NCBI GenBank assembly: GCA_017455685.1
Contig: JAFSZH010000004.1
Coordinates: 1-32,280 of the forward strand
DNA: 32,280 nt
Direction: 5' to 3'
Source: Oscillospiraceae bacterium
Lineage (GTDB): Bacteria > Bacillota > Clostridia > Oscillospirales > Oscillospiraceae
In this document: positions 3,701 to 32,280 of the stretch, piece by piece
Layout of the letters: each line of letters begins with the position of its first letter
Numbering within the stretch: the first letter of the stretch is position 1
The notes under the pieces: model-generated
Told to the model about the DNA's origin: nothing
What the model saw: only the letters and a program-made list of their open reading frames with translations
Databases searched by the model: none
Translations under genes and position numbers: made by a program

Positions 3701-4578
3701 GGACCCGGCGCGGCCTGCGGGCCCTGACCCTGGCGCTGCTGTTCCTGATCCTGGGCGGGTGCCTGCTGCTGGCGGAGCGGCAGATCCGCCTCTCCGGCGG
3801 CGAGACGGCCCTGACGGCGGCGGAACTCCCCGGCGGGAATGCTGCGCTGTATCTGCCCCGGGCGGTCCCGGTCGCCGAAGCGCTCCCCGCCCACGACGAG
3901 GAGGGAGATGACGGCCACCGCCACGAAGCGGTCTATACCGGCGGAAAGATGAACGCGGTGATGATCCTCTCCCGGGGCGCGGACGGCGCCTCCGTCCTGG
4001 CTGCGGAGCTCTCCCGCCGGGGCGTGGCGGCGCTGATCGTCAACGGGGAAAACGGCCGCGAGGCCTGGGACTGGCTCACGGCGCAGGACTTCGTCCGCCT
4101 TTCGGGCACGGCCCTGGCCGCGCCGAAGGGGCGGAGCGCCGAGGCCCTGGACCTGGCGGACAGCCTGCGCGGAACCGGCCGGGAATGCGCCGCGGTGATC
4201 CTGCTGGGAGACGCCGGCACCCTGCGCCGGGCGGGCGGCTCCGACGCCAGGAACGTGCTCATGTTCACCGGCCGGGCAGACCCGGCGGCGGAGGAGGCCT
4301 TCTTCGGCTCTGCCGTGGATGCGGAGCGGGGCTTTTCCGGCTATTTCAGCGACGGCTCCGCCCGGGCCTGCGTCCGGGGCGGGGGAAGCTTTTTCTCCCG
4401 GCGGACGCTGGAAACGGTGATGGACTGGCAGGGCAGCTCCCTGGGCCACACCGTGGAGCTGCCCGACGACGATCTGATCTGCGGGAAGCTGCTGCTGTGC
4501 CGGGCCTGGGCGGGGCTTTGCCTGCTGGCGGCGGCCGGGGTGCTGCTGTGCCGCCGGCGGATCGAAGAGGAACGATGA
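3697..4578 (+). CDS. Membrane-anchored protein resembling a degenerate alpha/beta-hydrolase
   Basis: This 293-residue protein has an N-terminal transmembrane or signal-anchor segment (about residues 8-26) and a second hydrophobic helix near the C-terminus (LLLCRAWAGLCLLAAAGVLL). The middle follows the order of Firmicutes membrane alpha/beta-hydrolases: a VMILSRGADGAS strand-turn, AAELSRRGVAALIVNG, then an LMFTGRADP strand typical of the acidic-residue loop, and a GYFSDGSAR ... TVMDWQ region. The GxSxG nucleophile elbow is not there; the equivalent stretch reads VRLSGTALA. If the resemblance is real, it is probably not a working hydrolase. The start is the ATG at 3697 overlapping the upstream TGA (ATGA). 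An in-frame ATG 39 bases upstream lies inside the lipoprotein gene and has no better ribosome site. Membership of the fold is inference; the two membrane segments are clear. Confidence 0.8.
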   Translation: MRTRRGLRALTLALLFLILGGCLLLAERQIRLSGGETALTAAELPGGNAALYLPRAVPVAEALPAHDEEGDDGHRHEAVYTGGKMNAVMILSRGADGASVLAAELSRRGVAALIVNGENGREAWDWLTAQDFVRLSGTALAAPKGRSAEALDLADSLRGTGRECAAVILLGDAGTLRRAGGSDARNVLMFTGRADPAAEEAFFGSAVDAERGFSGYFSDGSARACVRGGGSFFSRRTLETVMDWQGSSLGHTVELPDDDLICGKLLLCRAWAGLCLLAAAGVLLCRRRIEEER

Positions 4579-4592
4579 AAGGAGAGATCCTT

Positions 4593-5885
4593 ATGAAAAA
4601 AACGGCGGAGAGTTTTCTGCGCGAACACAACATGTACTACGGCCAGATGCCCTTTGAGGATCTGGTAAAGATGTATCTGGAGGAGATGGAGGCCGGACTG
4701 CGGGGAGAGCCCTCCTCGCTGCTGATGCTGCCCTCCTTCATCCGCTCGGACGAGGAACCGGCCCGGGGGGAGAGCGTACTGGTGCTGGACGCCGGAGGCA
4801 CCAACCTCCGGGCCGGACGGATCCACTTTGACGAGACCGGTAAGCCCGTGGTGGAGGTGCTGAAAAAGCGCTGGATGCCCGGGACCGGCGGCGTGGAGGT
4901 GGACGCCGACGAGATGTACCGGGAGATGGCCCGCTTTGCCCTGGACTGCGTGGGCGAATGCAGACGGGCCTGCATCAGCTTTTCCTACGCCTGCGAGAGC
5001 CGTCCCGACGGGGACGGGATCATCCTCAACCTGTGCAAGGAGCTCCGGGTGAGGAATGCTGAGGGCACGGCGGTGTGCGCCTCTCTGGAAAAGGCTCTGA
5101 AGGAGCTGGGCGCCCCCGGCAGGCGGTCCTGGCGGGTGGTGAACGACGCGGTGGGCTCCATGCTGGGCGGCATGGCGGAGGCCGACCGGAGCCGTTATGC
5201 CGACTATATCGGCTTTATCCTGGGCACGGGCACCAACGCCTGCTGCACCGTCCCCTCGGAGCAGATCACCAAGAACCCCCAGGCCGCGGCCATGGGGGGC
5301 GAGATGATCGTGAACATGGAATCCGGCTGCTTCACCCGGATGCTGCGGGGCACCGTGGATCTGGCGCTGGACAGCGAGTCTGCCATCCCCGGCGACCATC
5401 AGGCAGAGAAAATGATCTCCGGCAGCTATTACCGGCAGGTCCTGGGCCGGACGCTGGAGCTGGCGGCCCGGGAGGGCGCGCTGTCTTCGGGTGTGTCGGA
5501 GCGGCTGAAGGTCCTCCGCATCACCAGCGCCCTGGTGGACGCTTTCTGTCTGGAGCCCCACGGGGACAACCCCATCGCCCGGGCCCTGGGCAGCCGGGAG
5601 GACCGGGACTTCGGCGCGGCGGTGAACGACGCCCTGCTGGAGCGGGCCGCCCGGGTGGCCGCCGCCTGCCTGTGCGCAGTGATCGAAAAACGGGGCCTGC
5701 CCCGGGGCAGCCGGGTGGGCGTCTGCGCCGACGGCACCATGCTCCGGCTGAATCCGGTGCTGCGGCCCAAAATGGAAGCGTATCTTGACGGATACGCCCT
5801 GGAAAAGCTGGGCGTGAAGGCGGAGTTCCTCTTCGCCGAGGACGCCACGCTGCTGGGCAGCGCCTGGGCGGGGCTTCTGGCATGA
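4593..5885 (+). CDS. Eukaryotic-type hexokinase/glucokinase
   Basis: This 430-residue sugar kinase is of the eukaryotic-type hexokinase family rather than the short bacterial ROK or Glk types. It would phosphorylate glucose or another hexose with ATP. Phosphate-binding motif 1 is VLDAGGTNLRAG with Asp66, Gly68, Gly69 and Thr70. The sugar-binding stretch is ISFSYACES followed by PDGDG. The likely catalytic base is Asp185 in VVNDAVGSML. The second phosphate loop is GFILGTGTNACC, followed by NMESGCF, and VCADGTM occurs near the C-terminus. The ATG at 4593 has AAAGGAGA 7 nt upstream. The open frame extends back to 4185 but that part lies in the upstream gene. The 3' end overlaps the next gene by ATGA. 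Glucose-6-phosphate made here could feed the neighbouring GlgC/GlgB pathway after isomerisation by a phosphoglucomutase not present here. Confidence 0.92.
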   Translation: MKKTAESFLREHNMYYGQMPFEDLVKMYLEEMEAGLRGEPSSLLMLPSFIRSDEEPARGESVLVLDAGGTNLRAGRIHFDETGKPVVEVLKKRWMPGTGGVEVDADEMYREMARFALDCVGECRRACISFSYACESRPDGDGIILNLCKELRVRNAEGTAVCASLEKALKELGAPGRRSWRVVNDAVGSMLGGMAEADRSRYADYIGFILGTGTNACCTVPSEQITKNPQAAAMGGEMIVNMESGCFTRMLRGTVDLALDSESAIPGDHQAEKMISGSYYRQVLGRTLELAAREGALSSGVSERLKVLRITSALVDAFCLEPHGDNPIARALGSREDRDFGAAVNDALLERAARVAAACLCAVIEKRGLPRGSRVGVCADGTMLRLNPVLRPKMEAYLDGYALEKLGVKAEFLFAEDATLLGSAWAGLLA

Positions 5886-8136: not shown

Positions 8137-10326
8137 ATGAGCAAGACCCTGATGAAGGTTCTGTCTCTGGTGCTGTGCCTGGCCATGGTCCTGGCGCTGG
8201 TCGGCTGCGGAAGCAAGAAGACTGAAACTGCCCCCGCCGCCACCGCCGCTCCTGCCGCCACGGAAGCCCCGGCTGCTGAGCCCGAACCTGCTGATGAGCC
8301 CGCCGAGTACGACGGCTATGTCAGCGAACTCGTCAATGGCGAGTATGCCCGCGCCGACGATGAGGACGTTTATTACAACGTTCTCGGCAACTACGCCGAT
8401 CTGGCTGCCGAGGCCAAGCTCGTCTCCAACGACAGCGAGCGTTTCGTTCTGTACGCTCAGGCTGAGGCCTACCTGCTGGACAGCGCTGTCATGCAGCCCA
8501 ACACCACCCAGGGCGGCGCCTACACCATCAGCCGCATCGCTCCCCGTACCGTTCCTTACGTGCAGTGGGGCAATGACGACGACCGTTTCTTCGGCATGGT
8601 CATCTCCGATGAGTTCCTGACCCCCGAAGAGCGCGCCGATCTGTTCGAGCTGTGGGGCAAGGCCGTTGCCGGCGAGGGCGAGTATGATCCCGCCGCCTAC
8701 CTGACCGAGAAGGGCCACACCATCCAGAACACCTACACCTACAGCTTCTCCACCGCTCCCGTGACCATCGACTGGCTGAACACCTCTTCCCAGTCCGATA
8801 CCGAGATCACCGTCAACTGCGTGGACGGCCTGGTGCAGTACAACAACCTCAACCAGCTCCAGCCCGCTCTGGCGGAGAGCTGGGAAGTCTCCGAGGACGG
8901 CACTGTTTACACCTTCCACATCCGTCCGGGCGTGTACTGGTACACCTCTGAGGGCACCGAGTACGCCGAAGTGAAGGCGGAAGACTTCGTCTCCGGCTTC
9001 CATCACATGCTTGACACCCAGGCCGGTCTGGAGTGGCTCATCGACGGCGTCGTCGTGGGCGGCACTGCTTACTACGCCGAGGGCGGCAGCTGGGACGACG
9101 TTGGCTACAAGGCCATCGACGACTACACCCTGGAAGTCACCCTGGAGCGCGAGGTCCCCTACTTCATGACCATGCTGACCTACTCCTGCTTCCTGCCCAT
9201 CTGCACCAGCTTCTATGAGGCTCACGGCGGTGTGTTCGGCGTCGAGGAGTTCGCTGCTGCGTCTGCCGACACCAACACCTACACCTTCGGCAAGTCCGAG
9301 GACGTCGCTTCTCAGGTCTACTGCGGACCCTTCCTGCTCCAGAAGCTGGTGAAGGATTCCGAGATCCTGGTCGTGAAGAACCCCAACTACTACAACATCG
9401 ACAACGTGACCCTCGAGTCCATCAAGTGGGTCTTCGACGCCGGTGAAGATCCCGTCGCCACCTACAACGACACCCTCAACGGCGTTTATGCCGGCATCAC
9501 CCTGACCGAGGCTACCGGCCTGCTGGCCCGTGCCAAGGAAGACGGCAACTTCGACAAGTACGCCTACATCTCCGAGACCATTTCCACCACCTACTTCGGC
9601 GGCCTGAACGTGAACCGCGGCACCTTCGCTCTGGAGAGCGGCGCCTGCGCTTCTCCCAAGACCGAGCAGGAGAAGGCCGACACCGTTACCGCGCTGAACA
9701 ACAAGAACTTCCGCAAGGCCCTGCAGCACGCCTGGGACAAGGCCACCCAGAACGCCACCAGCCGTGGCGAGGATCTGGCCGAGACCAACCTGCGCAACAT
9801 GTACACTCACCCCGAGTTCGTCAGCCTGTCCGAGGACGTGACCGACGCTGACGGCCACACCTTCCCCGCCGGCACCTTCTACGGCGAGATCGTGCAGTAC
9901 TACCTGGATCAGATGGGCGCCAAGATCAACGTCGCTGACCAGTGCAACGGCTGGTACAATCCCGAAGCCGCTGTCGAGTACCTCGAGGCCGCCAAGGCTG
10001 AGCTGGGCGATCTCGTGTCCTGGCCCATCCAGATCGACGTGGTCTACTACTCCGCCTCCAGCGCCAACACCGCGCAGGCTCAGGCTTACAAGCAGACCGT
10101 CGAGGCCACTCTGGGCGCTGAGAACGTTCAGGTCAACCTGATCGAGGCCACCACCACCGAGGACTTCTACGCCTGCGGCTACCGCGCTTCCAACGGCGAA
10201 GCCGGCAACTTCGATATGTTCTACGGCTCCGGCTGGGGTCCTGACTACGGCGATCCTTCCACCTACCTGGATACCTTCCTGGGCGAGGGCGCCGGCTACA
10301 TGACCAAGGTCATCGGCCTGTTCTGA
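8137..10326 (+). CDS. oppA: Oligopeptide-binding lipoprotein, Ami/OppA type, apparently circularly permuted
   Basis: This 729-residue lipoprotein is the substrate-binding part of the importer encoded downstream. The signal peptide ends in LVGC (Cys24), followed by an Ala/Pro/Glu stalk. Residues about 197-729 follow the AmiA/OppA core: VDGLVQYN, LAESWEVSEDGTVYTFHIRP, CGPFLLQKL, FRKALQHAWD and GSGWGPDYGDPSTYLDTF. The protein then stops about 25 residues later, at GAGYMTKVIGLF. The segment that normally closes such proteins lies instead at residues about 57-190: ERFVLYAQAEAYLLDSAV, GGAYTISRIAPRT, PYVQWGNDDDRFFGM, then a TPEERADLFELWGKA helix. The order is therefore tail-then-core, a circular permutation. 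No frameshift is visible. The ATG at 8137 has AAGGAGG 9 nt upstream; an earlier in-frame ATG at 8107 lacks one and would spoil the signal peptide. Codons are more biased (many GCT, CGT, AAG) than in neighbours, fitting high expression. Confidence 0.93.
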   Translation: MSKTLMKVLSLVLCLAMVLALVGCGSKKTETAPAATAAPAATEAPAAEPEPADEPAEYDGYVSELVNGEYARADDEDVYYNVLGNYADLAAEAKLVSNDSERFVLYAQAEAYLLDSAVMQPNTTQGGAYTISRIAPRTVPYVQWGNDDDRFFGMVISDEFLTPEERADLFELWGKAVAGEGEYDPAAYLTEKGHTIQNTYTYSFSTAPVTIDWLNTSSQSDTEITVNCVDGLVQYNNLNQLQPALAESWEVSEDGTVYTFHIRPGVYWYTSEGTEYAEVKAEDFVSGFHHMLDTQAGLEWLIDGVVVGGTAYYAEGGSWDDVGYKAIDDYTLEVTLEREVPYFMTMLTYSCFLPICTSFYEAHGGVFGVEEFAAASADTNTYTFGKSEDVASQVYCGPFLLQKLVKDSEILVVKNPNYYNIDNVTLESIKWVFDAGEDPVATYNDTLNGVYAGITLTEATGLLARAKEDGNFDKYAYISETISTTYFGGLNVNRGTFALESGACASPKTEQEKADTVTALNNKNFRKALQHAWDKATQNATSRGEDLAETNLRNMYTHPEFVSLSEDVTDADGHTFPAGTFYGEIVQYYLDQMGAKINVADQCNGWYNPEAAVEYLEAAKAELGDLVSWPIQIDVVYYSASSANTAQAQAYKQTVEATLGAENVQVNLIEATTTEDFYACGYRASNGEAGNFDMFYGSGWGPDYGDPSTYLDTFLGEGAGYMTKVIGLF

Positions 10327-10371
10327 TGCTGAACTGACCGGGCATCCGGTCAAACTTCACACAAGCTTCCG

Positions 10372-10415
10372 ACACATAGGGGGACTTCGTGTCCTCCTAT
10401 GTGTTTCGGGTTTTT
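10372..10415 (+). terminator. Hairpin terminator after the binding-protein gene
   Basis: ACACATAGGGGGAC (10372-10385) pairs with GTCCTCCTATGTGT (10391-10404) over 14 bp with one G-T wobble and a 5-nt loop. It is followed by TTCGGG and a T5 run. The displaced T-run may allow partial read-through into the permease genes, a usual way to make more binding protein than transporter. Confidence 0.7.
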
Positions 10416-10627: not shown

Positions 10628-12211
10628 ATGAGAAAATATATGATCCGGCGCATCCTGTTCTCGATCTTCTCCCTGCTTGTCGTCATCATGCTGGTCATGC
10701 TGCTGGTATACAGCCTGATCGAGCGCAGCGTCATTTTCCAGACGGACGACACATGGAACAAGAAGAGCAACAACGACCGGGTGTATTACGAATACACCCA
10801 GTACCAGAAGTACGGCTATCTTACCTTCGTGGATTACACCGCGTTCCTGAAGAACAAGTATCAGGCGCTGGTGGGAGACAACTATACCACCGACCACGAT
10901 TACATCGTCGACAAGAACGCCATTCTGGACGCGGAGACCTATATGGACAACCCCACCGTCCGGGAGTTCATGGAAAAGTACTCCGAGGAGGGCTACACCT
11001 TCCGTTTCCTGGAGGCCATGAAGTACCGCTCCGGCAAGGTCAAACCCGGCGGCAACGCCTATCTGCTGGCCATCCACGAGAAGAGCGTGGTGGCGCGGCT
11101 CTTTGACTACGTCAAGGGCTTCATCACCGTGGAGACCAAAAACATGGTCCAGGATCCGGAGCTCACCGAGCGGTATATCCGCATCGAAAAGGACCCGTAT
11201 TCCGGCCTGTTCGCCGTGGTGGGCAGCGGCACGCAGCACAAGTATCTGCTGTATTTCGACAACCGCTTCCCCTTCATCCACCAGAACTGGCTGCATCTGA
11301 ACCTGGGCGTGTCCTACACCACCTACCGGGGCCAGGAGATCTCCTCGGTGATCACCAATCCCCAGGGCAGTCTGGACGTGCGGCGGCAGCAGTACCCGGC
11401 CCTGATCGGCACCGACCAGTACGTGGATACCGCCATCGACTTCCACTCTCTGAGCTACAATTCCGGCACCGTCAGTGAGGTGGAAAAGCAGCAGTTCCCG
11501 GACAAGTACACGGTCTACAACTACAACCGGGACGGCCTTTCCATGATCGGCAACTCCTTCGTCATCGGCCTGATCGCCACGGCCATTGCCTATGCTCTGG
11601 GCCTGCCTCTGGGCATGATCAACGCCCGGAACAAGGACAAGCTGGCGGACAAGCTGGGCAGCGTGTATATCATCTTCATCACCAGCGTGCCCGCGCTGGC
11701 CTATATCTTCATGTTCGCGGCGGTGATGACCCGGCTCTTCCACCTGCCGTATAAATTCGCCAACGCGGAGGTACGGGTCCTGGCGTACATCCTGCCCACC
11801 ATTTCTCTGGCCCTGCCCAGCATCGGCGGCCTGATGAAATGGATGCGCCGGTACATGATCGACCAGATGAACTCCGACTACGTGAAATTCGCCCGGGCCG
11901 AGGGCCTGAGCGAAAAGGAGATCTACAACATCCACATCTCCAAGAACGCCTTCATCTACCTGGTCCACGGCGTCCCCGCCAACATCCTCTCCTGCCTGGT
12001 GGGCGCCATCATCACCGAGCGCGTCTACTCCGTACCCGGCGTCGGCAACCTGCTCACCCGGGCCATCAACTCCCACGACAACGGCGTCATCGTGGCCGTG
12101 GCGGTGTTCTATACCTCTTTGAGCATCATCGCCCTGATCCTGGGCGACCTGCTGCTGGCCCATTATGATCCGCGGATCTCCCTGTCTGCGGAGAAAGGAG
12201 GCGGGCGGTAA
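10628..12211 (+). CDS. oppB: Oligopeptide ABC transporter permease, AmiC/OppB type with large exterior domain
   Basis: This is one of the two membrane subunits of the peptide importer. It has 527 residues, against about 300-330 for ordinary OppB and about 500 for streptococcal AmiC. The N-terminus MRKYMIRRILFSIFSLLVV begins the first transmembrane helix. Residues about 40-295 form a long hydrophilic region that should face outside, where it could dock the binding protein. The standard BPD_transp_1 core follows with several helices, from about NSFVIGLIATAIAYALGLPL. The cytoplasmic coupling (EAA-like) loop reads YVKFARAEGLSEKEIYN. The stop overlaps the oppC start by one base (TAATG). The alternative GTG start at 10595 is possible. 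The long exterior domain is known for AmiC-type permeases and fits the Ami-like binding protein. Confidence 0.92.
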   Translation: MRKYMIRRILFSIFSLLVVIMLVMLLVYSLIERSVIFQTDDTWNKKSNNDRVYYEYTQYQKYGYLTFVDYTAFLKNKYQALVGDNYTTDHDYIVDKNAILDAETYMDNPTVREFMEKYSEEGYTFRFLEAMKYRSGKVKPGGNAYLLAIHEKSVVARLFDYVKGFITVETKNMVQDPELTERYIRIEKDPYSGLFAVVGSGTQHKYLLYFDNRFPFIHQNWLHLNLGVSYTTYRGQEISSVITNPQGSLDVRRQQYPALIGTDQYVDTAIDFHSLSYNSGTVSEVEKQQFPDKYTVYNYNRDGLSMIGNSFVIGLIATAIAYALGLPLGMINARNKDKLADKLGSVYIIFITSVPALAYIFMFAAVMTRLFHLPYKFANAEVRVLAYILPTISLALPSIGGLMKWMRRYMIDQMNSDYVKFARAEGLSEKEIYNIHISKNAFIYLVHGVPANILSCLVGAIITERVYSVPGVGNLLTRAINSHDNGVIVAVAVFYTSLSIIALILGDLLLAHYDPRISLSAEKGGGR

Positions 12212-13173
12212 TGAAAGACCTTTACGCCGACAAATCCCGGGACGAGCTGTTCTACTTCATCGACCGGGACGAGATCGCCTCGGAGAAGATCACCGCGCCC
12301 CGCTACTCCTACTGGAAGAGCGTGTTCCGTGTCTTCTTCCGCAAGAAGATCAACATCGCGCTGATCGCGCTGTTCATCCTGATCTTCGCCGTCAGCTTCA
12401 TCGGGCCCATCTTCTGGCCCTACGACCCCTTTGAGAACGTGACCAACGCGGCCACTTACAACCTGAGCCCCGCCAGGGCCCTGTCGTATTTCGGCAGCGA
12501 CATCAAGTGGGTGCTGGGCACCGGCACCCTGGGCAACTCCATCTTCTACGGCGTCATCTCCTCCGCCCGGACCAGTCTGCTGCTGGCGGTGATCTGCGCG
12601 GCCATCAACATGACCGTGGGCATCCTGATGGGCGCGATCTGGGGTTACTCCAAGCGCTTCGACCAGGGAATGCTGGTGGTCTACAACATCATCGCCAACA
12701 TCCCCTATATCCTGCTGATCAGCGTGCTGGTGTACGTCATCGGCTCGGGCTTCTGGCCCTTCGTGTTCGCTCTGACCGTCACCGGCTGGCTGGGCATCGC
12801 CTACTTCTTCCGCACCCAGGTCATGATCATCCGTGACCGGGAATACTCTCTGGCCTCCCGGTGCCTGGGCACCCCGGTGCACCGGGTCATCGGCAAGAAC
12901 ATCCTGCCCTTCCTCACCAGCGTCATCGTGACCCTGCTGGCCACCGAGCTGCCCAGCTACATCTCCATGGAAGTGTTTTTGAGCTTCATCGGCGTGGGCC
13001 TGAGCGCCTCGGTGCCCTCTCTGGGCCGCATGATCCAGGAAGCCCAGAGCGCGTTCCTTACCTTCCCCTGGGCCTTCTGGCCGCCCGCCATCGTGGCCTC
13101 CGTGATCACCATCATCCTGTACCTGCTGGGTCAGAATCTTGCTGACGCCTCTGACCCGCGGACCCATATGTGA
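12211..13173 (+). CDS. oppC: Oligopeptide ABC transporter permease, OppC type
   Basis: This is the second membrane subunit, 320 residues. An N-terminal cytoplasmic part of about 45 residues leads to a first helix (IALIALFILIFAVSFIGPIF) and a short exterior segment (FGSDIKWVLGTGTLGNSIFY, the LGTD-like motif of OppC). The BPD_transp_1 core then has five further helices. The coupling loop REYSLASRCLGTPVHRVIGK and the following NILPF fit the EAA consensus. The C-terminal PWAFWPPAIV and LADASDPR resemble the family ending, normally LRDALDPR. An AAAGGAGG site lies upstream of the ATG, which overlaps the oppB stop as TAATG, implying coupled translation. Length is normal. Confidence 0.95.
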   Translation: MKDLYADKSRDELFYFIDRDEIASEKITAPRYSYWKSVFRVFFRKKINIALIALFILIFAVSFIGPIFWPYDPFENVTNAATYNLSPARALSYFGSDIKWVLGTGTLGNSIFYGVISSARTSLLLAVICAAINMTVGILMGAIWGYSKRFDQGMLVVYNIIANIPYILLISVLVYVIGSGFWPFVFALTVTGWLGIAYFFRTQVMIIRDREYSLASRCLGTPVHRVIGKNILPFLTSVIVTLLATELPSYISMEVFLSFIGVGLSASVPSLGRMIQEAQSAFLTFPWAFWPPAIVASVITIILYLLGQNLADASDPRTHM

Positions 13174-13191
13174 GGAAGGAGGGACTTGAAC

Positions 13192-14997
13192 ATGAACGAA
13201 GAAAAGAAGGTCCTCCTCTCTCTGAAGAACGTAGAGGTCAAATTCAACGTCCGGGGCCGTATCCTCACGGCCATCCGGAACGTATCCCTGGACATTTACG
13301 AGAACGAGTCCCTGGCCATCGTGGGCGAGTCCGGCTCGGGCAAGAGCGTGCTGACCAAGACCTTTGCCGGCATGCTGGATTCCAACGGCTTCATCCCCCA
13401 GGGCTCCATCATCCTCTCCGACGACGAGCTGGCCAAGACCGACGTGCAGCTCACCGCCAGGAACGAAAAGCTCTTTGAAAAGGCGTGGGACATGCTCAAC
13501 AAGCACTCCGTCAACGAACGGGGCGCCGCAGAGTACATGGCCATCGTCCGCAAAAAGGAGGAGATCGAGCACCGCCAGTCCCTATCCCAGGATGAAGAGG
13601 CGGATTTCGCCGCCCGCATCAAGTCCGCCTCCGACGACGTGGTGGACAAGACCAACTACCTCTGGACCCTGGACAGAAAGGCGGACGCCGCCGAGGTCGC
13701 CAAGGTGGAGGCGGAGATCAAGGAGCTCACCGCCAGACGGGACGCGCTGGAAAAGGAGAAGAACGATCTCGCCAAAAAACGCGCCGCCGCCTACAAGAAC
13801 GACACCGCCCGGGCCAACTTCGACCAGGCGGAGATCCAGCGGCTGGAGGAGACCCGCCGCCGGAAGATCGAGACCCCCCGGGACGCCAATAACCCCTACG
13901 GGGTGGATAACGCCACCCTGGAGCGGAACAAGATCATCGCCTATGAGATCGTGCTGTCCATCGCCCGGTTCCCGGCCCGTGTCCAGGCCAAAAACCTGCG
14001 AAAGCTGGAAAAGGCCTTCAACGTGGCCATGACCACCGGCGAAGACCTGAACGACGAGACCCTCCGCAACCGGCTGTTCGAGGAAGTGGGCTTCCGCGTG
14101 GCCTACCGCTCCTTTGACGAGAGCACCCGGACCATCCACGGCTACGGCATCATCGACTGCGCCAAGATCAAGTACGCCAACGACTGGCAGCAGATCCGCG
14201 GCCGCCGGATCGCCACCGTGTTCCAGGACCCCATGACCTCCCTGAACCCGGTCATCACCATCGGCAAACAGATCATGACCGTCATTCAGAAGCACCAGAA
14301 GTGCTCCAACGCCGAGGCCCGGGAGCGGACCCTGGACATCATGGCGAAAGTGGGTATCCCCGATCCCGAAAAGCGGTTTGACGATTACCCCTTCGAGTAC
14401 TCCGGCGGCATGCGCCAGCGCATCGTCATCGCCATCGCCCTCAGCTGCCAGCCCAAGATCCTCATCTGCGACGAGCCCACCACGGCTCTGGACGTGACCA
14501 TCCAGGCCCAGATCATCCGGCTCATCAAGGATCTGCAGCACAAGCTGGGCTTCACCACCGTGTATATCACACACGACCTGGGCGTGGTGGCCAACGTGGC
14601 CGAGCGGGTGGCGGTGCTCTACGGCGGACAGATCGTGGAGATCGGCACCGTGGAAGAGATCTTCTATGACCCCAGACATCCCTATACCTGGGCGCTGCTG
14701 AGCTCCATGCCCCAGCTGTGCGAAAAGGGCGGAGACCTGTTCTCCATCCCCGGCACGCCCCCGTCACTGTACAACAAGATCGTGGGCGACGCCTTCGCCC
14801 CCCGGAATCAGTACGCCATGGCCATCGACCTGGTGGAGGAGCCGCCCATGTTCCAGGTGAGCCCCACCCACTTCGCCAAGACCTGGCTGTTGGACCCCCG
14901 GGCCCCCAAGACCGAGGCCCCGGCCAATATCCGGAACCTGCATGAGAAGATTTTGAAGACCTACGTCAGTTTCGATGAGGAGGCGGCCAATGGATAA
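13192..14997 (+). CDS. oppD: Oligopeptide ABC transporter ATPase, OppD type, with large insertion after Walker A
   Basis: This is one of two cytoplasmic ATPases that power peptide import. All ABC motifs are present: Walker A GESGSGKS (45-52), Q-loop [10 protein letters not shown] (344-353), signature YSGGMRQR (403-410), Walker B ILICDEP ending near 429, and H-loop ITHDLG with His461. The OppD C-terminal extension follows ([22 protein letters not shown]). Family members are about 330-360 residues; this one has 601. The extra roughly 240 residues lie between Walker A and the Q-loop (about 95-330). They are highly charged, with probable helical coiled-coil stretches such as [20 protein letters not shown]. 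The frame is intact and codon use is uniform, so it is not a frameshift artefact. The ATG at 13192 has AAGGAGGG 8 nt upstream; a TTG two codons earlier is too close. It overlaps oppF by 8 bases. Confidence 0.93.
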
Positions 14998-15943
14998 CAA
15001 CGAAAAACAGGTGCTGCTGTCCATCCAGAATCTGGACGTGGTATTCGGCCGCGGCAAGAAGGCCTTCAAAGCCGTGGACAACGTCAGCTTTGACATCTAC
15101 AAGGGCGAGACCCTCTCTCTGGTGGGCGAGTCCGGCTCCGGCAAGACCACCATCGGCCGGGCCATCGTGCGCATCAATCCCTGCTCCGCCGGCGCCATCT
15201 ACTACGACGGCAAGAAGATCTCCGGCAAGCTGTCCCGGAAGGACGACCGGGAGGTCATCCGCAAGATCCAGATGATTTTCCAGGACCCCGCCGCCTCTCT
15301 GAACGAGCGGGCCACCATCGACTACATCATCTCCGAGGGCCTGTACAACTTCCATCTCTACAAGGATGAAAAGGACCGCGTCGCCAAGATCGAGAAGATC
15401 GTCAAGGACGTGGGCCTGCTGCCCGAGCATCTGACCCGCTACCCCCACGAGTTTTCCGGCGGCCAGCGCCAGCGCGTAGGCCTGGCCCGTTCCATCGTCA
15501 TGGAGCCCGAGTTCATCGTGGCCGACGAGCCCATCTCCGCGCTGGACGTGTCCATTCGCGCCCAGGTGCTGAACCTGCTGAAGAAGTTCCAGAAGGAGCG
15601 GGGCCTGACCTATCTGTTCATCGCCCACGACCTGTCCATCGTGCGCTTCATCAGCGACCGGATCGTGGTCATCTACAAGGGCCGGGTCATGGAGATCGCC
15701 GAGACCGAGGAGCTCTTCGCCTATCCTCTGCACCCCTACACCAAGTCTCTGATCTCCGCCATCCCCATTCCCGATCCCATCATCGAGAAGGAGAAAAAGC
15801 TGTTCGTGTACGATCCCGCCAAAATGCACGACTACTCTCAGGAGCAGCCCCAGCTGGTGGACATCGGCAACGGCCACATGGTCTTCGGCAACACCGCCGA
15901 GATCGAGAAGTACAAGGCCATCCGCTTCGGCGGCGAAAACTGA
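14990..15943 (+). CDS. oppF: Oligopeptide ABC transporter ATPase, OppF type
   Basis: This is the second ATPase of the importer, 317 residues, normal for OppF. Motifs in order: Walker [11 protein letters not shown]-loop [10 protein letters not shown], signature [10 protein letters not shown], Walker B EFIVADEP followed by ISALDVS, and the switch AHDLS. The C-terminal region has the family motif [12 protein letters not shown], then a short tail ending with IRFGGEN. In contrast to its partner, it has no insertion between Walker A and the Q-loop. The ATG at 14990 lies inside the end of oppD, with GAGGAGG 6 nt upstream; an earlier in-frame ATG at 14975 includes that site and is unlikely. It is the last gene of the importer operon, followed at once by a strong hairpin. 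Confidence 0.96.
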
Positions 15944-17294: not shown

Positions 17295-20200
17295 TCACCC
17301 GAAGTATTTCTGCATCTGCTCCTCGGAGAGACCGAAGTACGCCCGGGCGCCGTTTCTCATTTCCTCCGCCCGGCCGTCGGCAAAGTCCTTCAGCCGCGCC
17401 AGGCTGTTGGGGAACATGGCGGCGCCCCAGCCCCAGCGGGCCTGGTCCCGGTCGGCCTCCGGCGCCACCTGGGCAGCCAGGGCGTCGATTCGCGAGAGCA
17501 CCGCGGCGTCGGAGAGCTCTCCGTTCAGCAGCTGGCCCAGCCGGGTCAGGAACATATCCTTGAATTCCGCGTTGGCCAGCAGGGCGTTGGGGATGATCCA
17601 GTGGAGCTGGGCGTCGCTGTAGCCGAAGCCCACGGAGAAGGTCTCATGGCTGCTCATGGTCAGATCCATGTCCGCCAGACCGTAGACCACCCGGTTGTTC
17701 TCATACTCGGGACTGGAATAGAAGCGCACGTTCTCGTATACGTCGATGTCGCCGCTCCAGCACTCCAGGATCAGCCAGTCGATCAGCACCGGGATATCCA
17801 GATGCTCCTGCATGTACTTCCATTCCGCCTCGCCGCCCAGATAATGGGTCTCGGCGTAGGTCAGCAGATCGGAGAAGGTGCCGGGGTAGCGGGCAAAGCC
17901 GTTGTAGACCTGCACAGAATCCTCGCTCACCCCGGTGTGGGAGGCGAAGAAGTCGTCGCCGTGCTTTTCCCGAATGGAGTAGATGCCCCAGTATTCGCCG
18001 TTGATATACAGCGACACGAACCGGGTGTTTTGGGCGGGCACGTCCGTAAAGTCGATGGCCATAGCCCCGAAGAGGTCGTCGGCGATGTATGCGCCGCTGG
18101 CGCCCTGGAGCGTGCCCCGGAGCAGCAGGGAGGAGAAGTCGGTGACCACACCGTCCCCGAACACGTCATAGTGGAGGTCGCCGCCGTACCTGCCCCGGAA
18201 TTTCAGCTTCATGGAGCGCTTTTCGCTCTGGCTTCGGCTGGTCCGGCCGTGGATCTGCACGCCGCAGTCGATGGTGAAGCTGCCGTCCTCTTCAAAGAGG
18301 GACAGGGAAGCTTCCCGCTCCCACTCCTGCTGCCAGGCGATGTCGTGGTTGGTGTAGATGCCCTGGGGCCCGAAGAGGTTGGCGCTGTCCGTCACCAGAC
18401 TGACGATGGGCAGAGAGCTGTTCTCCCGCAGGAAGTAGGAGAGGGTCACCACCTCGCTGGGGATCTGCCCGTCGGGATAGCTCCGCAGCCGCAGAACGGT
18501 GGTGTTCGTGATGGTGACGGGCCCTTCGCAGAGCGCCGAATTTTCCGTGGGCGTGCTGCCGTCGGTGGTGTAGCGGACGTTTTCCCCGGTAATGGTGAGC
18601 GTCAGGCTCTCTGCGTCATCGTAGACGCCGGGGGCCACGTCCGCCGCGGGGGCCTGGGCCGTCATCCGCCTGCCGCCGGCGTTCTCCCCGCCGGGCGTGG
18701 GCGCGGTGAAGTAAAAATACCCGTTTTCCCCGTCCATCCGGCCATAGCTGCCCTGCCGGGGCAGGCCCCGGAGCCAGGCCCAGTCCACGGTCCGGCCGTC
18801 TCTGCGGCACAGGTACAGATCGTCCCCCTCGGCGCTGAGCCCGAAGGCGGAGCAGGAGATCGCCGCCAGCTCCCCGGGGCCCAGTTCGCCGGAGAGAACC
18901 TGGTATTTCTCGGTCCTGTTCAGATTATCTGTGAGATAATAGTCCCCCAGGTCGATCTCCGAGTCGGACACGTTCTTCACTTCCACCCAGTCGCCCCGCT
19001 GGCTGTCCCGGACCACCGCTTCCCAGATGAGCAGCAGGGAGTCCCGGCGGTCAGCCTCCGCCAGAGCGAGATAGCCGGCCGTGTCGTTGGGCTGACCCGG
19101 GGTGGGGTACAGGGAAGTGTGATATGTACCGTCCTCCCCCAACGCCAGGGACTGCCCCTCGGGGATGTCGTCGGTGGAGAGCGAGGCGTGGACCGCCCCG
19201 GTGGGCGTGACCAGATACACCGTCTCCCCCGGGGTCAGGGCGAAGGAGGCGTGGAGCTCCGTCCCGCTGCGGTTCTTGCCGGAGGCGTATACCAGCAGCC
19301 GCTCGCCCGGCTGCAGCGTCACGTCCGGGATGACCCAGTCGGTGAGCAGCTCCTCGCTGTCGGATAAGTACCAGCCGCCCAGAGACACGGGCGCATCGGC
19401 CTGGTTGACCAGCTCGATCCAGTCGGAGAAATCCCCGTCGGCGTCCACGCAGAAGGCCCGGTTCTGCACCATGACCTCGGCGATGGCCACCCGGGCGTCC
19501 CGGTAGGCGTCGGTGCCCTGATAGGCGGCGTAGCCGTCCTCGTCGTTGGGATAGCCGGGGGTGGGCCGGTCGCTGACCTCCCAGCCCTCGCCCGTCCGGG
19601 CGTAGGACAGGTTCTTTTCCAGCGGGGGCAGCGTCACGCTGTCAACGGGACTGCCGCCGGGCCCGGTGAGGACCACCGTCTCCCCGCCGGCTTTGGCCAG
19701 GGCGAAGGGGGCGGCCAGTTCTCCGGATGCGTCGGGGGAGCACCAGATCACCAGATATTCGCCGGGACCAAGCATCCGGTCCTCGGGGAAGGAATACTTG
19801 AGCTTGTCCTCCCGGTCGGAGAGCCGGTAGCCCGCCAGAGAGACCCCCTTGTCCGAGGGGTTGCAGACCTCGATCCAGTCGAAGGCCGTGCCGTCGGGAG
19901 AGAAATACAGGGTGTTGGCGGCCATGACCTCGCTGAGGACAAGCGTGCCGCCGGTGCTCTCGGCGAGGGTGGCCTGATAGGCCCGCTGTCCCGCCTCGTC
20001 GTTGGGATAGCCGGGGGTGGGGGTATCGGAGGGGACCAGGGAGCCGTCGTCGGCGCGGACCAGGGACTGGCCCGATCTGCACGGCACGGTGAGGGCGCTG
20101 TCCATCACCACCCGGTTGGAGTTCAGGAGACATACGCTCTCCCCGCCCTCTTTCTTCAGGGCAAAGGGGGCGTAATCCCCTTCCAGCTCCGCCGAGCACC

Positions 20201-20531
20201 ACACCACCAGATACCCTTTGGCGGGCACGGCGGTCCCGGCGGGGAAGGCGTATTTATCCTTGCCCGCCTGGTCGGTGAGAAAGTACCCGCTCAGATCGAA
20301 GGGCCGGGAAGAGGTGTTCTCGATCTCCACCCAGTCGCACACCGCGCCCTCGGCGTTGGGACAGGCGGTGTTCTCCGTCATGACCTCGCTGATATGGACG
20401 GCGTACCCTCCGTCCCACACGGGCTTCTGGCGCTTTTGCAGGGCCGTCACGGCCAGCACCGCGGCCAGGGTCAGGACCAGAAGCAGGGCTGTCCACAGCA
20501 GCAGTTTTGTACATTGTTTCTTTCTGGACAT
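17295..20531 (-). CDS. CotH-kinase family surface protein with four lamin-tail-like domains
   Basis: The protein has 1078 residues. A short cytoplasmic tail and TM helix (about 9-31) are followed by four beta-rich lamin-tail-like domains at about 44-178, 196-330, 347-483 and 500-616. The recurring pattern is ISEVM, DWIEI, L.GY.LSD, PGEYLVIWCS and a closing PTPGYPND. A chitobiase/FN3-like segment (about 630-702, VRYTTDGSTPT) precedes the CotH domain (about 705-1060). CotH has IHGRTSRSQSEKRSMKLKF, the strand LYINGEYWGIYSIREK and a late acidic motif GLADMDLTMS. CotH proteins are atypical protein kinases, first known from spore coats; this one should act outside the cell. GGAGG lies 7 nt from the ATG. 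It follows two repeat-protein genes on the same strand (57-bp gap), suggesting one operon. The kinase target is unknown. Confidence 0.92.
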   Translation of the reverse strand: MSRKKQCTKLLLWTALLLVLTLAAVLAVTALQKRQKPVWDGGYAVHISEVMTENTACPNAEGAVCDWVEIENTSSRPFDLSGYFLTDQAGKDKYAFPAGTAVPAKGYLVVWCSAELEGDYAPFALKKEGGESVCLLNSNRVVMDSALTVPCRSGQSLVRADDGSLVPSDTPTPGYPNDEAGQRAYQATLAESTGGTLVLSEVMAANTLYFSPDGTAFDWIEVCNPSDKGVSLAGYRLSDREDKLKYSFPEDRMLGPGEYLVIWCSPDASGELAAPFALAKAGGETVVLTGPGGSPVDSVTLPPLEKNLSYARTGEGWEVSDRPTPGYPNDEDGYAAYQGTDAYRDARVAIAEVMVQNRAFCVDADGDFSDWIELVNQADAPVSLGGWYLSDSEELLTDWVIPDVTLQPGERLLVYASGKNRSGTELHASFALTPGETVYLVTPTGAVHASLSTDDIPEGQSLALGEDGTYHTSLYPTPGQPNDTAGYLALAEADRRDSLLLIWEAVVRDSQRGDWVEVKNVSDSEIDLGDYYLTDNLNRTEKYQVLSGELGPGELAAISCSAFGLSAEGDDLYLCRRDGRTVDWAWLRGLPRQGSYGRMDGENGYFYFTAPTPGGENAGGRRMTAQAPAADVAPGVYDDAESLTLTITGENVRYTTDGSTPTENSALCEGPVTITNTTVLRLRSYPDGQIPSEVVTLSYFLRENSSLPIVSLVTDSANLFGPQGIYTNHDIAWQQEWEREASLSLFEEDGSFTIDCGVQIHGRTSRSQSEKRSMKLKFRGRYGGDLHYDVFGDGVVTDFSSLLLRGTLQGASGAYIADDLFGAMAIDFTDVPAQNTRFVSLYINGEYWGIYSIREKHGDDFFASHTGVSEDSVQVYNGFARYPGTFSDLLTYAETHYLGGEAEWKYMQEHLDIPVLIDWLILECWSGDIDVYENVRFYSSPEYENNRVVYGLADMDLTMSSHETFSVGFGYSDAQLHWIIPNALLANAEFKDMFLTRLGQLLNGELSDAAVLSRIDALAAQVAPEADRDQARWGWGAAMFPNSLARLKDFADGRAEEMRNGARAYFGLSEEQMQKYFG

Positions 20532-30491: not shown

Positions 30492-31412
30492 TCAGTCCAG
30501 CGTGTCCAGATAATCGCAGGCGGCCAGGGCGGCGGCGGCGCCGTCGGCCACGGCGGTGGTGAGCTGCCGGACGGTTTTTTTCCGGCAGTCCCCGGCGGCA
30601 AAGATACCGGGGATCGCCGCGGCGCAGCCCTCATCCAGATCGGCGTAGCCCGCCGGGGTCAGGGGCAGCACGTTTTCAAAGCAGCCCAGCTCCGGCTTCA
30701 GGCCGATGGACACGAACAGCACGTCCGTTTCCAGCTCCCGGGTCCGGCCCGTTTCCGTGTCCCGGAGCCGGAGAGCGGCCAGAGAGCCGTCCTTTTCGAT
30801 CAGTCCGTCGATCACCGCCGGGGCGATCACGGTCACGTTTTTCCGGGAAAACAGCCGCTGCTGCTTGATGGCGTCCCCCCGGAAGGCGGCGCGCCGGTGG
30901 ATCACGTACACCTTTTCACAGATATCGGACAGCAGCAGCGCCTCCTGCAGGGCGCTGTCCCCGCCGCCCACCACCGCGGCGGTGCGCCCGGCGTAAAAGC
31001 CGCCGTCGCACACCGCGCAGTAGGAAACGCCGCTGCCCAGCAGGGTGTCCTCCCCGGGCAGACCCAGCCGCCGGTGGGCGGCCCCCGCCGCCAGGATCAC
31101 GGCCCGGCCCTGGAAAACGTCCCCCTCCTCGGTGGCCACCTGCCAGCAGCCGTTTTCCTGCCGGACGGAGCAGACGGTGCCGATGTCGGTGTCCGTATCC
31201 AGCACCATCACCTGGGTGAGCATGTTCTCCGCCAGCTCCGCCCCGGACACGGGGCCCACGCCGGGGTAGTTCTCCACCCGGGGCGCGTAGGCGATCTGGC
31301 CGCCGAAGCCCTCTTTTTCCAGCAGCAGCACGTTCCGGCCGTTCCGCCGGGCGTAAATGGCGGCGGTGAGGCCCGCGGGCCCGCCGCCCACGATGATGAT
31401 ATCGTACAGCAT
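30492..31412 (-). CDS. trxB: Thioredoxin reductase (NADPH-dependent flavoprotein)
   Basis: TrxB reduces thioredoxin- or glutaredoxin-like proteins with NADPH through FAD and a redox-active disulfide. The 306 residues include the FAD site IIIVGGGPAGLTAAIYARR, the redox pair Cys132/Cys135 in YCAVCDGGFY, the NADPH site VVGGGDSALQEALLL and the C-terminal FAD motif IFAAGDCR. Length is normal. The start at 31412 has GAGGAG 7 nt upstream; the frame is open for nine more codons without a better site. It lies downstream of the nrdD-glutaredoxin fusion gene on the same strand, separated by a hairpin-rich 240-bp gap. This suggests that it supplies electrons to the fused redoxin, though general thioredoxin reduction is also expected. 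Confidence 0.95.
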   Translation of the reverse strand: MLYDIIIVGGGPAGLTAAIYARRNGRNVLLLEKEGFGGQIAYAPRVENYPGVGPVSGAELAENMLTQVMVLDTDTDIGTVCSVRQENGCWQVATEEGDVFQGRAVILAAGAAHRRLGLPGEDTLLGSGVSYCAVCDGGFYAGRTAAVVGGGDSALQEALLLSDICEKVYVIHRRAAFRGDAIKQQRLFSRKNVTVIAPAVIDGLIEKDGSLAALRLRDTETGRTRELETDVLFVSIGLKPELGCFENVLPLTPAGYADLDEGCAAAIPGIFAAGDCRKKTVRQLTTAVADGAAAALAACDYLDTLD

Positions 31413-31440
31413 AATCGTTCTCCTCTTCTTCCGGCACATC

Positions 31441-31655: not shown

Positions 31656-32280
31656 TTATCCGACCTGGCGAATGCTCTGCAGGTATTTTTTGATCTCAGC
31701 CACGCCGTAGTACTTCTCGAAGTGGACGCCGTCGCTGATGACCAGGGTGGGGGCGCCGGTGATGCCCAGCTCCCGGCACAGGTCCGCGTGTTCCTCGGCG
31801 GTCAGGTTCTCGTAAGCGAAGTTCTCCTTCTCCAGCAGCTTCTCGGCCACCCGGCAGTTGGGGCAGGTGACGCGGGTGAAGAGCTGAGCTCTGGGCTCGC
31901 CGGCAACGCCCAGCTCCTCGGGCTGGAGCCCGGCGTGGGTATCGTCGCAGGCGCAGCCGGCCTCGTGACGGTGGATGCCGCCGGTGAAGGTGGACCTGCC
32001 GATGTTGTAGACCTTCCGGTCCTTGAACTCCTGCACCTTGCCGTCGTTCCAGTTCTGCACCGGGCGGTAGTAGCCGGTGATGCGGCTCCAGACCTCGGTG
32101 GCGTGGCCGCAGGTGGGGCACACGGGCTGTTCACCGGTGAGGTAGCCGTGGTCGCTGCACACGGAGTAGGTGGGGCTCATGGTGTAGTAGGGCAGCTTGT
32201 AGTTCTCGGCGATCTTCCGCACCAGATCGGCGGCCGCTTTCCAGTCGGGCAGCTTCTCGCCCAGGAAGGCGTGGAACACG
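31656..32280 (-). CDS. nrdD: Anaerobic (class III) ribonucleotide reductase, C-terminal part with fused glutaredoxin-like domain; 5' end outside window
   Basis: NrdD reduces ribonucleoside triphosphates to deoxyribonucleotides under anaerobic conditions with a glycyl radical. The last 207 or so residues are visible. They include the zinc-site region CSDHGYLTGEQPVCPTCG and the radical-bearing loop WSRITGYYRPVQNWNDGK, where the Gly after Thr is the expected radical site. EFKDRKVYNIG follows. Ordinary NrdD ends soon after this. Here a linker (HRHEAGCACDDTHAG...) leads into a redoxin domain of about 75 residues with LFTRVTCPNCRVAEKLL (CPNC redox motif), GITGAPTLVI (cis-Pro loop) and a final helix ending SIRQVG. 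The fusion could deliver electrons directly, with trxB downstream recycling it. The N-terminal catalytic domain lies beyond the right edge. Confidence 0.93.
   Translation of the reverse strand, partial: VFHAFLGEKLPDWKAAADLVRKIAENYKLPYYTMSPTYSVCSDHGYLTGEQPVCPTCGHATEVWSRITGYYRPVQNWNDGKVQEFKDRKVYNIGRSTFTGGIHRHEAGCACDDTHAGLQPEELGVAGEPRAQLFTRVTCPNCRVAEKLLEKENFAYENLTAEEHADLCRELGITGAPTLVISDGVHFEKYYGVAEIKKYLQSIRQVG

Follow-up and report, generated by a model that had tools for sequence, protein, structure and literature searches.

A very probable circularly permuted substrate-binding lipoprotein of an Opp/Ami-type oligopeptide importer in Oscillospiraceae and other bacteria

The window, i.e., the whole stretch of 32,280 nucleotides from an Oscillospiraceae bacterium that was analysed, carries at positions 8137-10326 of the forward (+) strand a gene for a binding lipoprotein of 729 amino acids, whose ATG at 8137 is preceded by AAGGAGG. 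All parts of this gene and its operon lie on the same (+) strand. The product starts with a signal peptide (residues 1-24; 8137-8208), modelled by AlphaFold2 (AF2) as a helix at residues 3-22, which ends in the lipobox LVGC (residues 21-24); the sequence therefore has the signal peptide and lipobox cysteine of a bacterial lipoprotein, and lipid attachment is predicted. An Ala/Pro/Glu-rich stalk (residues 25 to approx. 70; 8209-8346), recognised by sequence and AF2 pLDDT, is followed by a segment that in AmiA-type proteins forms the tail. In particular, phmmer alignment and the domain limits available from PMC11192437 divide this moved tail into a lobe-2 part (residues 71-125, equal to AliD 527-582 and aligned with AliD chain 502-557; 8347-8511) and a Domain I (lobe 1) part (residues 126 to approx. 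160; 8512-8616). An AF2 helix at residues 163-177 (8623-8667) is the equivalent of helix a19 of the Ami/Ali proteins (AliD 622, chain 597, corresponds to residue 163) and is now internal. According to alignments and AF2, a new linker with a short helix at residues 185-191 (residues 178-197; 8668-8727) leads from the old C-terminus to the old N-terminus. The core (residues 198-729; 8728-10323) then runs from the normal N-terminus up to the break point, corresponding to AliD chain 6-500 and AmiA 14-497, with AmiA also matched by Foldseek. It includes W700-G-P-D703 (10234-10245), aligned by phmmer with the AliD W498/D501 clamp for the peptide amino terminus (PMC11192437, as far as available), and a new C-terminus delimited by alignment of relatives (residues 715-729; 10279-10323), the last letters of which are KVIGLF.

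The first-pass annotation had read this gene as a peptide-binding lipoprotein with its tail moved to the front, and its reading frame, coordinates and motifs (RFVLYAQAEAYLLDSAV at residues 102-118, GGAYTISRIAPRT at 126-138, PYVQWG at 140-145 and WGPDYGDPSTYLDTF at 700-714) were confirmed. The core, which it started near residue 197, begins at approx. 198 by phmmer. The tail does lie in front, but its homology starts at residues 68-71 (AliD) or 83-85 (the other proteins) rather than at 57, as had been proposed for a segment of residues 57-190; similarly, the chain ends 15 and not about 25 residues past WGPDYGDPSTYLDTF.

Downstream of the binding-protein gene, a strong terminator-like hairpin of 15 pairs followed by a T-rich tail (10371-10405; -29.5 kcal/mol, z -7.1) separates it from oppB and could yield more binding protein than permease. 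The genes that follow encode an OppB-type permease of 527 aa with a long N-terminal part (10628-12211; Pfam BPD_transp_1 at residues 325-518), an OppC-type permease (12211-13173; BPD_transp_1 and OppC_N), an OppD-type ATPase (13186-14997) and an OppF-type ATPase (14975-15943; ABC_tran and oligo_HPY). OppD matches ABC_tran in two stretches and has an insertion of approx. 235 residues (roughly 13471-14180) between Walker A (at 46) and the Q-loop (at 345); this insertion had no match among PDB sequences at E<=10.

Several other genes in the window were noted as well. An anaerobic ribonucleotide reductase (NRDD), represented by its C-terminal end, is fused to a glutaredoxin-like domain (31656-32279, - strand) and adjoins a thioredoxin-reductase-like flavoprotein (30492-31439, -). 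A large protein (17295-20531, -) combines four lamin-tail domain stretches with two further domains, one chitobiase-like and the other a CotH kinase domain. The product of 4575-5885 (+) matches Pfam Hexokinase_1 and Hexokinase_2, in a bacterial genome; proteins of this kind are best known in eukaryotes.

Pfam SBP_bac_5 matches residues 241-719 of the binding protein at 160.6 bits (curated cut-off 32.4); the only other Pfam row, BsuPI, stays below its cut-off (13.6 bits). When the whole protein was compared by phmmer with all PDB sequences, core residues 198-714 aligned with AmiA 14-497 (269.7 bits), and a second stretch, residues 85-180, aligned with AmiA 526-625 (20.5 bits). AliB and AliC gave the same two-stretch pattern, and the normal order, i.e., core first and tail last, was not found in the permuted protein, where the tail is ahead of the core. 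Searched on its own, as the first-pass annotation had advised, the front segment (137 aa, residues 57-193) had four PDB matches at E<=10, every one of them an Ami/Ali C-terminus (AliC, 2.5e-8; AliB, 2e-6; AmiA, 2.2e-5; AliD, 1.2e-3).

The break is most precise in AliD (PDB 8qlc), where the core stops at chain residue 500 and the tail, in a weak stretch of 14.7 bits, resumes at 502. Residues 71-163 align with AliD chain 502-597, and the C-terminal segment bearing a19 is therefore present. In a search with the tail alone, the AliD match begins at chain residue 499, overlapping the core by two residues; hence, in AliD the two pieces join within one or two residues. The earlier claim that the chain ends exactly where the missing tail would begin holds in AliD to this precision, but in AmiA, AliC and AliB 18 to 28 chain residues are unaligned between the pieces. 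That the pieces complement each other was borne out, as they do not overlap in the whole-protein searches against AmiA, AliB, AliC and AliD, the two residues of the tail-only AliD search apart. Moreover, alignment with canonical relatives shows that both new ends, the C-terminal one (GYMTKVIGLF) and the N-terminal one, continue into the canonical chain.

A profile of 589 positions built from 27 canonical relatives served as a continuity control. In its native order, the protein matches positions 483-579 (residues 80-175) and then 5-472 (residues 194-722), at 426.7 bits jointly. With the tail put back behind the core, a single unbroken match from 6 to 579 is obtained at 435.6 bits. The core without the tail scores 377.7 bits against the same profile; with a shuffled tail it averages 376.9 bits and reaches 378.8 bits at most (n=20). 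The real tail thus contributes 58 bits over the core alone, whereas shuffled tails contribute nothing.

The AF2 model, calculated from 68 permuted sequences only and with no templates, has a mean pLDDT of 89.6 and a pTM of 0.84. Averaged over blocks of ten residues, pLDDT lies between 90 and 97 from residue 61 to residue 200, apart from a value of 62 at 141-150; across the stalk region it rises from below 50 (residues 21-44) to 91 (61-70). The top four PDB matches in Foldseek by E-value are AliC, AliD, AliB and AmiA, and the best 50 of 407 matches are Ami/Ali, OppA and related binding proteins, which together with the pTM indicates a two-lobed cluster C fold. AmiA is matched with a TM of 0.74 (by target length) and an rmsd of 2.3 angstrom over 542 columns, AliB with a TM of 0.74 (by target length) and an rmsd of 2.4, and AliD, crystallised open, with a TM of 0.68 and an rmsd of 3.9. 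AliC, the crystal of which is a domain-swapped dimer according to the available text of PMC11192437, superposes poorly (TM 0.40, rmsd 29.2). As regards the structural check suggested by the first-pass annotation, the core superposes on AmiA at 2.3 angstrom, and the model is confident, the moved segment included. Foldseek aligns residues sequentially and so leaves the moved tail unplaced; judging from AF2 confidence and homology, this tail probably packs in its expected place.

The domain limits of AliD, as given in the part of PMC11192437 consulted, show where the old and new ends lie. Domain I comprises residues 29-63, 191-296 and 583-617, Domain II residues 64-190 and Domain III (lobe 2) residues 297-582; helix a19 (622-652) packs against lobe 1, and W498 and D501 clamp the amino end of the peptide. 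Published AliD numbers equal 8qlc chain numbers plus 25 (W473 is W498 and D476 is D501). The break at AliD 525/527 falls within Domain III and is therefore in lobe 2. The old termini, which the first-pass annotation had assigned to one lobe, fit Domain I together with a19 on lobe 1. Since these old termini are joined by residues 178-197 and the new ends are in lobe 2, the lipid anchor would move from lobe 1 to lobe 2.

The same order had been proposed for a search in related genomes, and it is widespread. A contig scan matched 143 stretches, 127 of which encode a relative; among the best 80 of these 127, which were retained (L039-L118), the tail precedes the core in 80 of 80. The record titles of these 80 loci name Oscillospiraceae, Lachnospiraceae, Erysipelotrichaceae, other Clostridia or Bacillota, and Spirochaetales or Sphaerochaetaceae, and many loci are of rumen or gut origin. 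Among 300 genomes from the family to which the window belongs, 41 have a match to the tail; 30 loci from that family comprise 25 permuted (from 25 genomes, the window's own counted) and 5 canonical ones, so that at least 25 of the 300 genomes have the permuted form. Three further family genomes with a tail match (G003, G076 and G022, the last represented by L016) have the canonical order. In a phylum set of 398 genomes, 32 match at 1e-30, and two of 30 loci are permuted (the window and G466); in a class set of 341 genomes, 16 match at 1e-40, five of them permuted. Profile matches in the permuted order also occur in 12 of 139 genomes (one match being split across two contig ends) in the order of the genome that contains L093, titled Spirochaetales. 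One genus holds both permuted (G000, G001) and normal (G004) importers. Plasmid carriage was considered and dropped: 2029 records match, but none of them aligns with more than 80% of the query at a single site, and the ten listed cover residues 189-725 only. In L106 (108-2691), the permuted protein has a different N-terminal extension of approx. 200 residues, and no opp genes occur in the approx. 6 kb downstream. Taken together, these occurrences suggest that the permuted order is a functional variant rather than a sequencing error.

The new ends are conserved as well. KVIGLF is the exact end of 45 of 82 proteins, cut ones counted too, and Y183 and G193 of the linker as well as W700 and D703 of the clamp are invariant in the 68-row permuted alignment (A1). 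Loss of basic charge on helix a19 was considered as a mark of the permuted form and dropped, because the net charge of a stretch of 30 residues ranges from -6 to +2 among permuted proteins (n=17) and from -7 to +2 among canonical ones (n=27).

Two main trees were built from core columns only. In the first, comprising 86 of 140 available rows (with the L039-L118 set thinned), all permuted proteins fall on one side of a branch with an SH-aLRT of 99, and their canonical AmiA-type neighbours are L166, L167, L171 and L202. A 72-row tree, from which 12 rows with weak tails, a single tail-less row and the long branch L190 were excluded, gives a permuted clade at 100/99 and a single change in 200 of 200 bootstrap trees. 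The permutation seems to have arisen once. The Spirochaetota members are nested within those of Bacillota, and therefore the gene crossed from one phylum to another at least once. A spirochete origin was considered but not upheld: in both thinned trees, the nine rows of Spirochaetota group as one clade, but in an 80-row tree four rows titled only "Bacillota bacterium" fall among them at a weak fork. The permutation is old enough for its tails to be only approx. 35-45% identical to one another and for its presence in two phyla. Tails at both ends were found in none of 143 distinct ORFs (100 permuted, 30 canonical and 13 without a clear tail), which leaves the origin by tandem duplication put forward in the first-pass annotation unproven.

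The operon is shared by most relatives. oppB lies directly downstream in 74 of the 80 permuted loci (the best 80 of 127); in five of the other six (L046, L073, L097, L110 and L114), the locus ends within the gene or within 425 bases. oppB also follows in all 16 further permuted operons (L149-L164), in L228-L230, and behind the canonical genes of L165-L168, L225, L232 and L233; it was not found beside canonical L226, L227 and L231. Walker A and the Q-loop of OppD are 170-411 residues apart (median 293) in 84 permuted operons and 49 apart in canonical L166, L167 and L225, the three measured, in which the insertion is absent. The OppD ORF is 342-770 aa long (median 605) in 86 permuted operons, all those below 560 aa (L056, L061, L078, L101 and L104) being truncated where the locus ends; canonical OppD proteins have 361, 361 and 372 aa, and that of L165 is in two pieces of 285 and 245. 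The insertion and the permutation changed on about the same branch, which amounts to one coincidence and not to a statistical association. It is a tentative suggestion, with the odds against it, that the permuted protein and the enlarged OppD mark a distinct, horizontally spread importer subtype, whose binding protein is both tethered and handled via lobe 2 and whose ATPase underwent a coupled change.

The view of the first-pass annotation that an AmiA-type protein was circularly permuted is supported by the sequence, the continuity of the profile match, the predicted structure, the conservation in many genomes and the single clade, and the product of 8137-10326 is very probably a circularly permuted substrate-binding lipoprotein of an Opp/Ami-type oligopeptide importer. 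Signal and stalk apart, both ends of its chain align with the same position of a normal chain (AliD 525/527), whereas the old N- and C-termini are linked via the a19 segment and the conserved linker. Homology and gene neighbourhood lend good support to the predicted function in oligopeptide import. The protein would adopt the ordinary two-lobed Venus flytrap fold, bind oligopeptides via the retained amino-terminus clamp W700 and D703, and pass them to the downstream permease, with the lipid tether, where retained, on lobe 2 rather than lobe 1. The permutation may have started as a tandem gene fusion that then lost its outer parts, and may have been retained as neutral or favoured by the altered tether or transporter.

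As a cause acting on top of circular permutation, selection could have favoured the shift of the anchor from lobe 1 to lobe 2, altering contact with the permease. The break point lies in lobe 2 by the AliD domain limits, as stated above, and the authors of the study on TpMglB-2, a permuted lipoprotein of another family, suggested tethering as a reason for its permutation (PMC4990184, as far as available). Judged by eye from the N-termini, the 80 loci (the best 80 of 127) comprise 55 with a lipobox, 19 in which the signal peptide lacks a fitting cysteine, and 6 that are unclear or cut (an initial pattern count gave 55, 21 and 4). Among others, L054, L059, L060, L062 and L065 (titled Clostridia) have a signal peptide, no fitting lipid cysteine and hardly any stalk. 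The 55 lipoboxes favour such selection, whereas the 19 relatives that are still permuted without a lipid cysteine, and the at least three changes in lipid-cysteine state required by the 80-row tree, speak against it. As the order is retained where the anchor seems gone, relocation of the anchor alone cannot explain its upkeep; selection for the shift is thus rather doubtful. Of the earlier idea of an anchor shift, the location of the new ends in lobe 2 stands, but its role as the purpose of the permutation is limited by the relatives without a lipid cysteine.

It is improbable that the protein is both permuted and domain-swapped, the moved tail completing the core of a second molecule in an obligate dimer. 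AliC, which belongs to the same branch, was crystallised in such a swapped form (PMC11192437, available part), but AF2 yields a confident monomer (pTM 0.84), although a monomer run is compatible with a swap too. The probability is lower still that the front piece was added as an independent domain that merely resembles an AmiA tail, with the core having lost its own. Identity to the nearest canonical proteins, those of the AmiA branch, is indeed 19-28% for the tail versus 34-35% for the core, and for TpMglB-2 the possibility that the permuted part came from another gene was considered by its authors (PMC4990184, available part). However, the tail alone matches only AmiA/Ali C-termini in the PDB, occupies the missing profile positions without overlap and joins the core within one or two residues in AliD. 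Furthermore, tail and core diverge together (identities correlate with an r of 0.86 over 136 pairs of 17 permuted proteins), and these 17 tails form one clade in a tree of tails alone. An assembly or binning artefact joining pieces of two adjacent binding-protein genes, conceivable for a source assembly of 85 contigs with a completeness of 72%, has a negligible probability and is refuted by the conserved permuted relatives, because all 80 loci from other records (the best 80 of 127) share the order, at least 25 of 300 same-family genomes (the window's own counted) are permuted, and the new C-terminus and linker are conserved.

The circularly permuted binding protein resembles AmiA, AliB, AliC and AliD (PDB 8a42, 8qlj, 8qlh and 8qlc; PMC11192437, available part) in its fold, branch, W/D clamp, a19 segment and adjoining opp-type genes. 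It differs from them in that the part from AliD 527 onward comes first, the termini lie in lobe 2, a19 is internal and joined to the first strand, and OppD is enlarged. According to the part of PMC4990184 consulted, TpMglB-2 (Tp0684) is a circularly permuted glucose-binding lipoprotein, and this type of permutation has been reported in treponemes and in Gram-positive, many of them gut, bacteria. Both proteins are natural circular permutations of a binding lipoprotein of an ABC importer, but TpMglB-2 belongs to another family with a Type I (cluster B) sugar-binding fold and has its first strands moved to the end. Homology to type Ic (Bc, TpMglB-2-like) sugar-binding proteins was not found in the present protein, for which only SBP_bac_5 passes the Pfam cut-off, and the two permutations are separate events. 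Canonical AmiA-type operons of the same genus or family (L166, L167) share the binding protein-B-C-D-F order, the long OppB and 34% core identity; they differ in having the tail at the end and an OppD of 361 aa without the insertion. Another altered domain order, the "domain dislocation", is that of the glycine-betaine/choline-binding proteins OpuAC and ChoX. No mention of this reordering was found in the available part of PMC2861598. In the literature searched, which did not extend to most subscription journals, no permuted peptide-binding protein was found, and TpMglB-2 was the sole binding protein of an importer for which a natural circular permutation was found to be published.

The finding also exposes a gap in annotation, as Pfam covers residues 241-719 alone. 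It places a permutation in the large class of peptide-binding proteins, precise to a residue or two and found in one clade across two phyla. As permuted and normal importers occur within one genus, they constitute a natural experiment on the tether point of a Venus flytrap protein, and the existence of both lipobox-bearing and cysteine-less permuted forms adds to this comparison.
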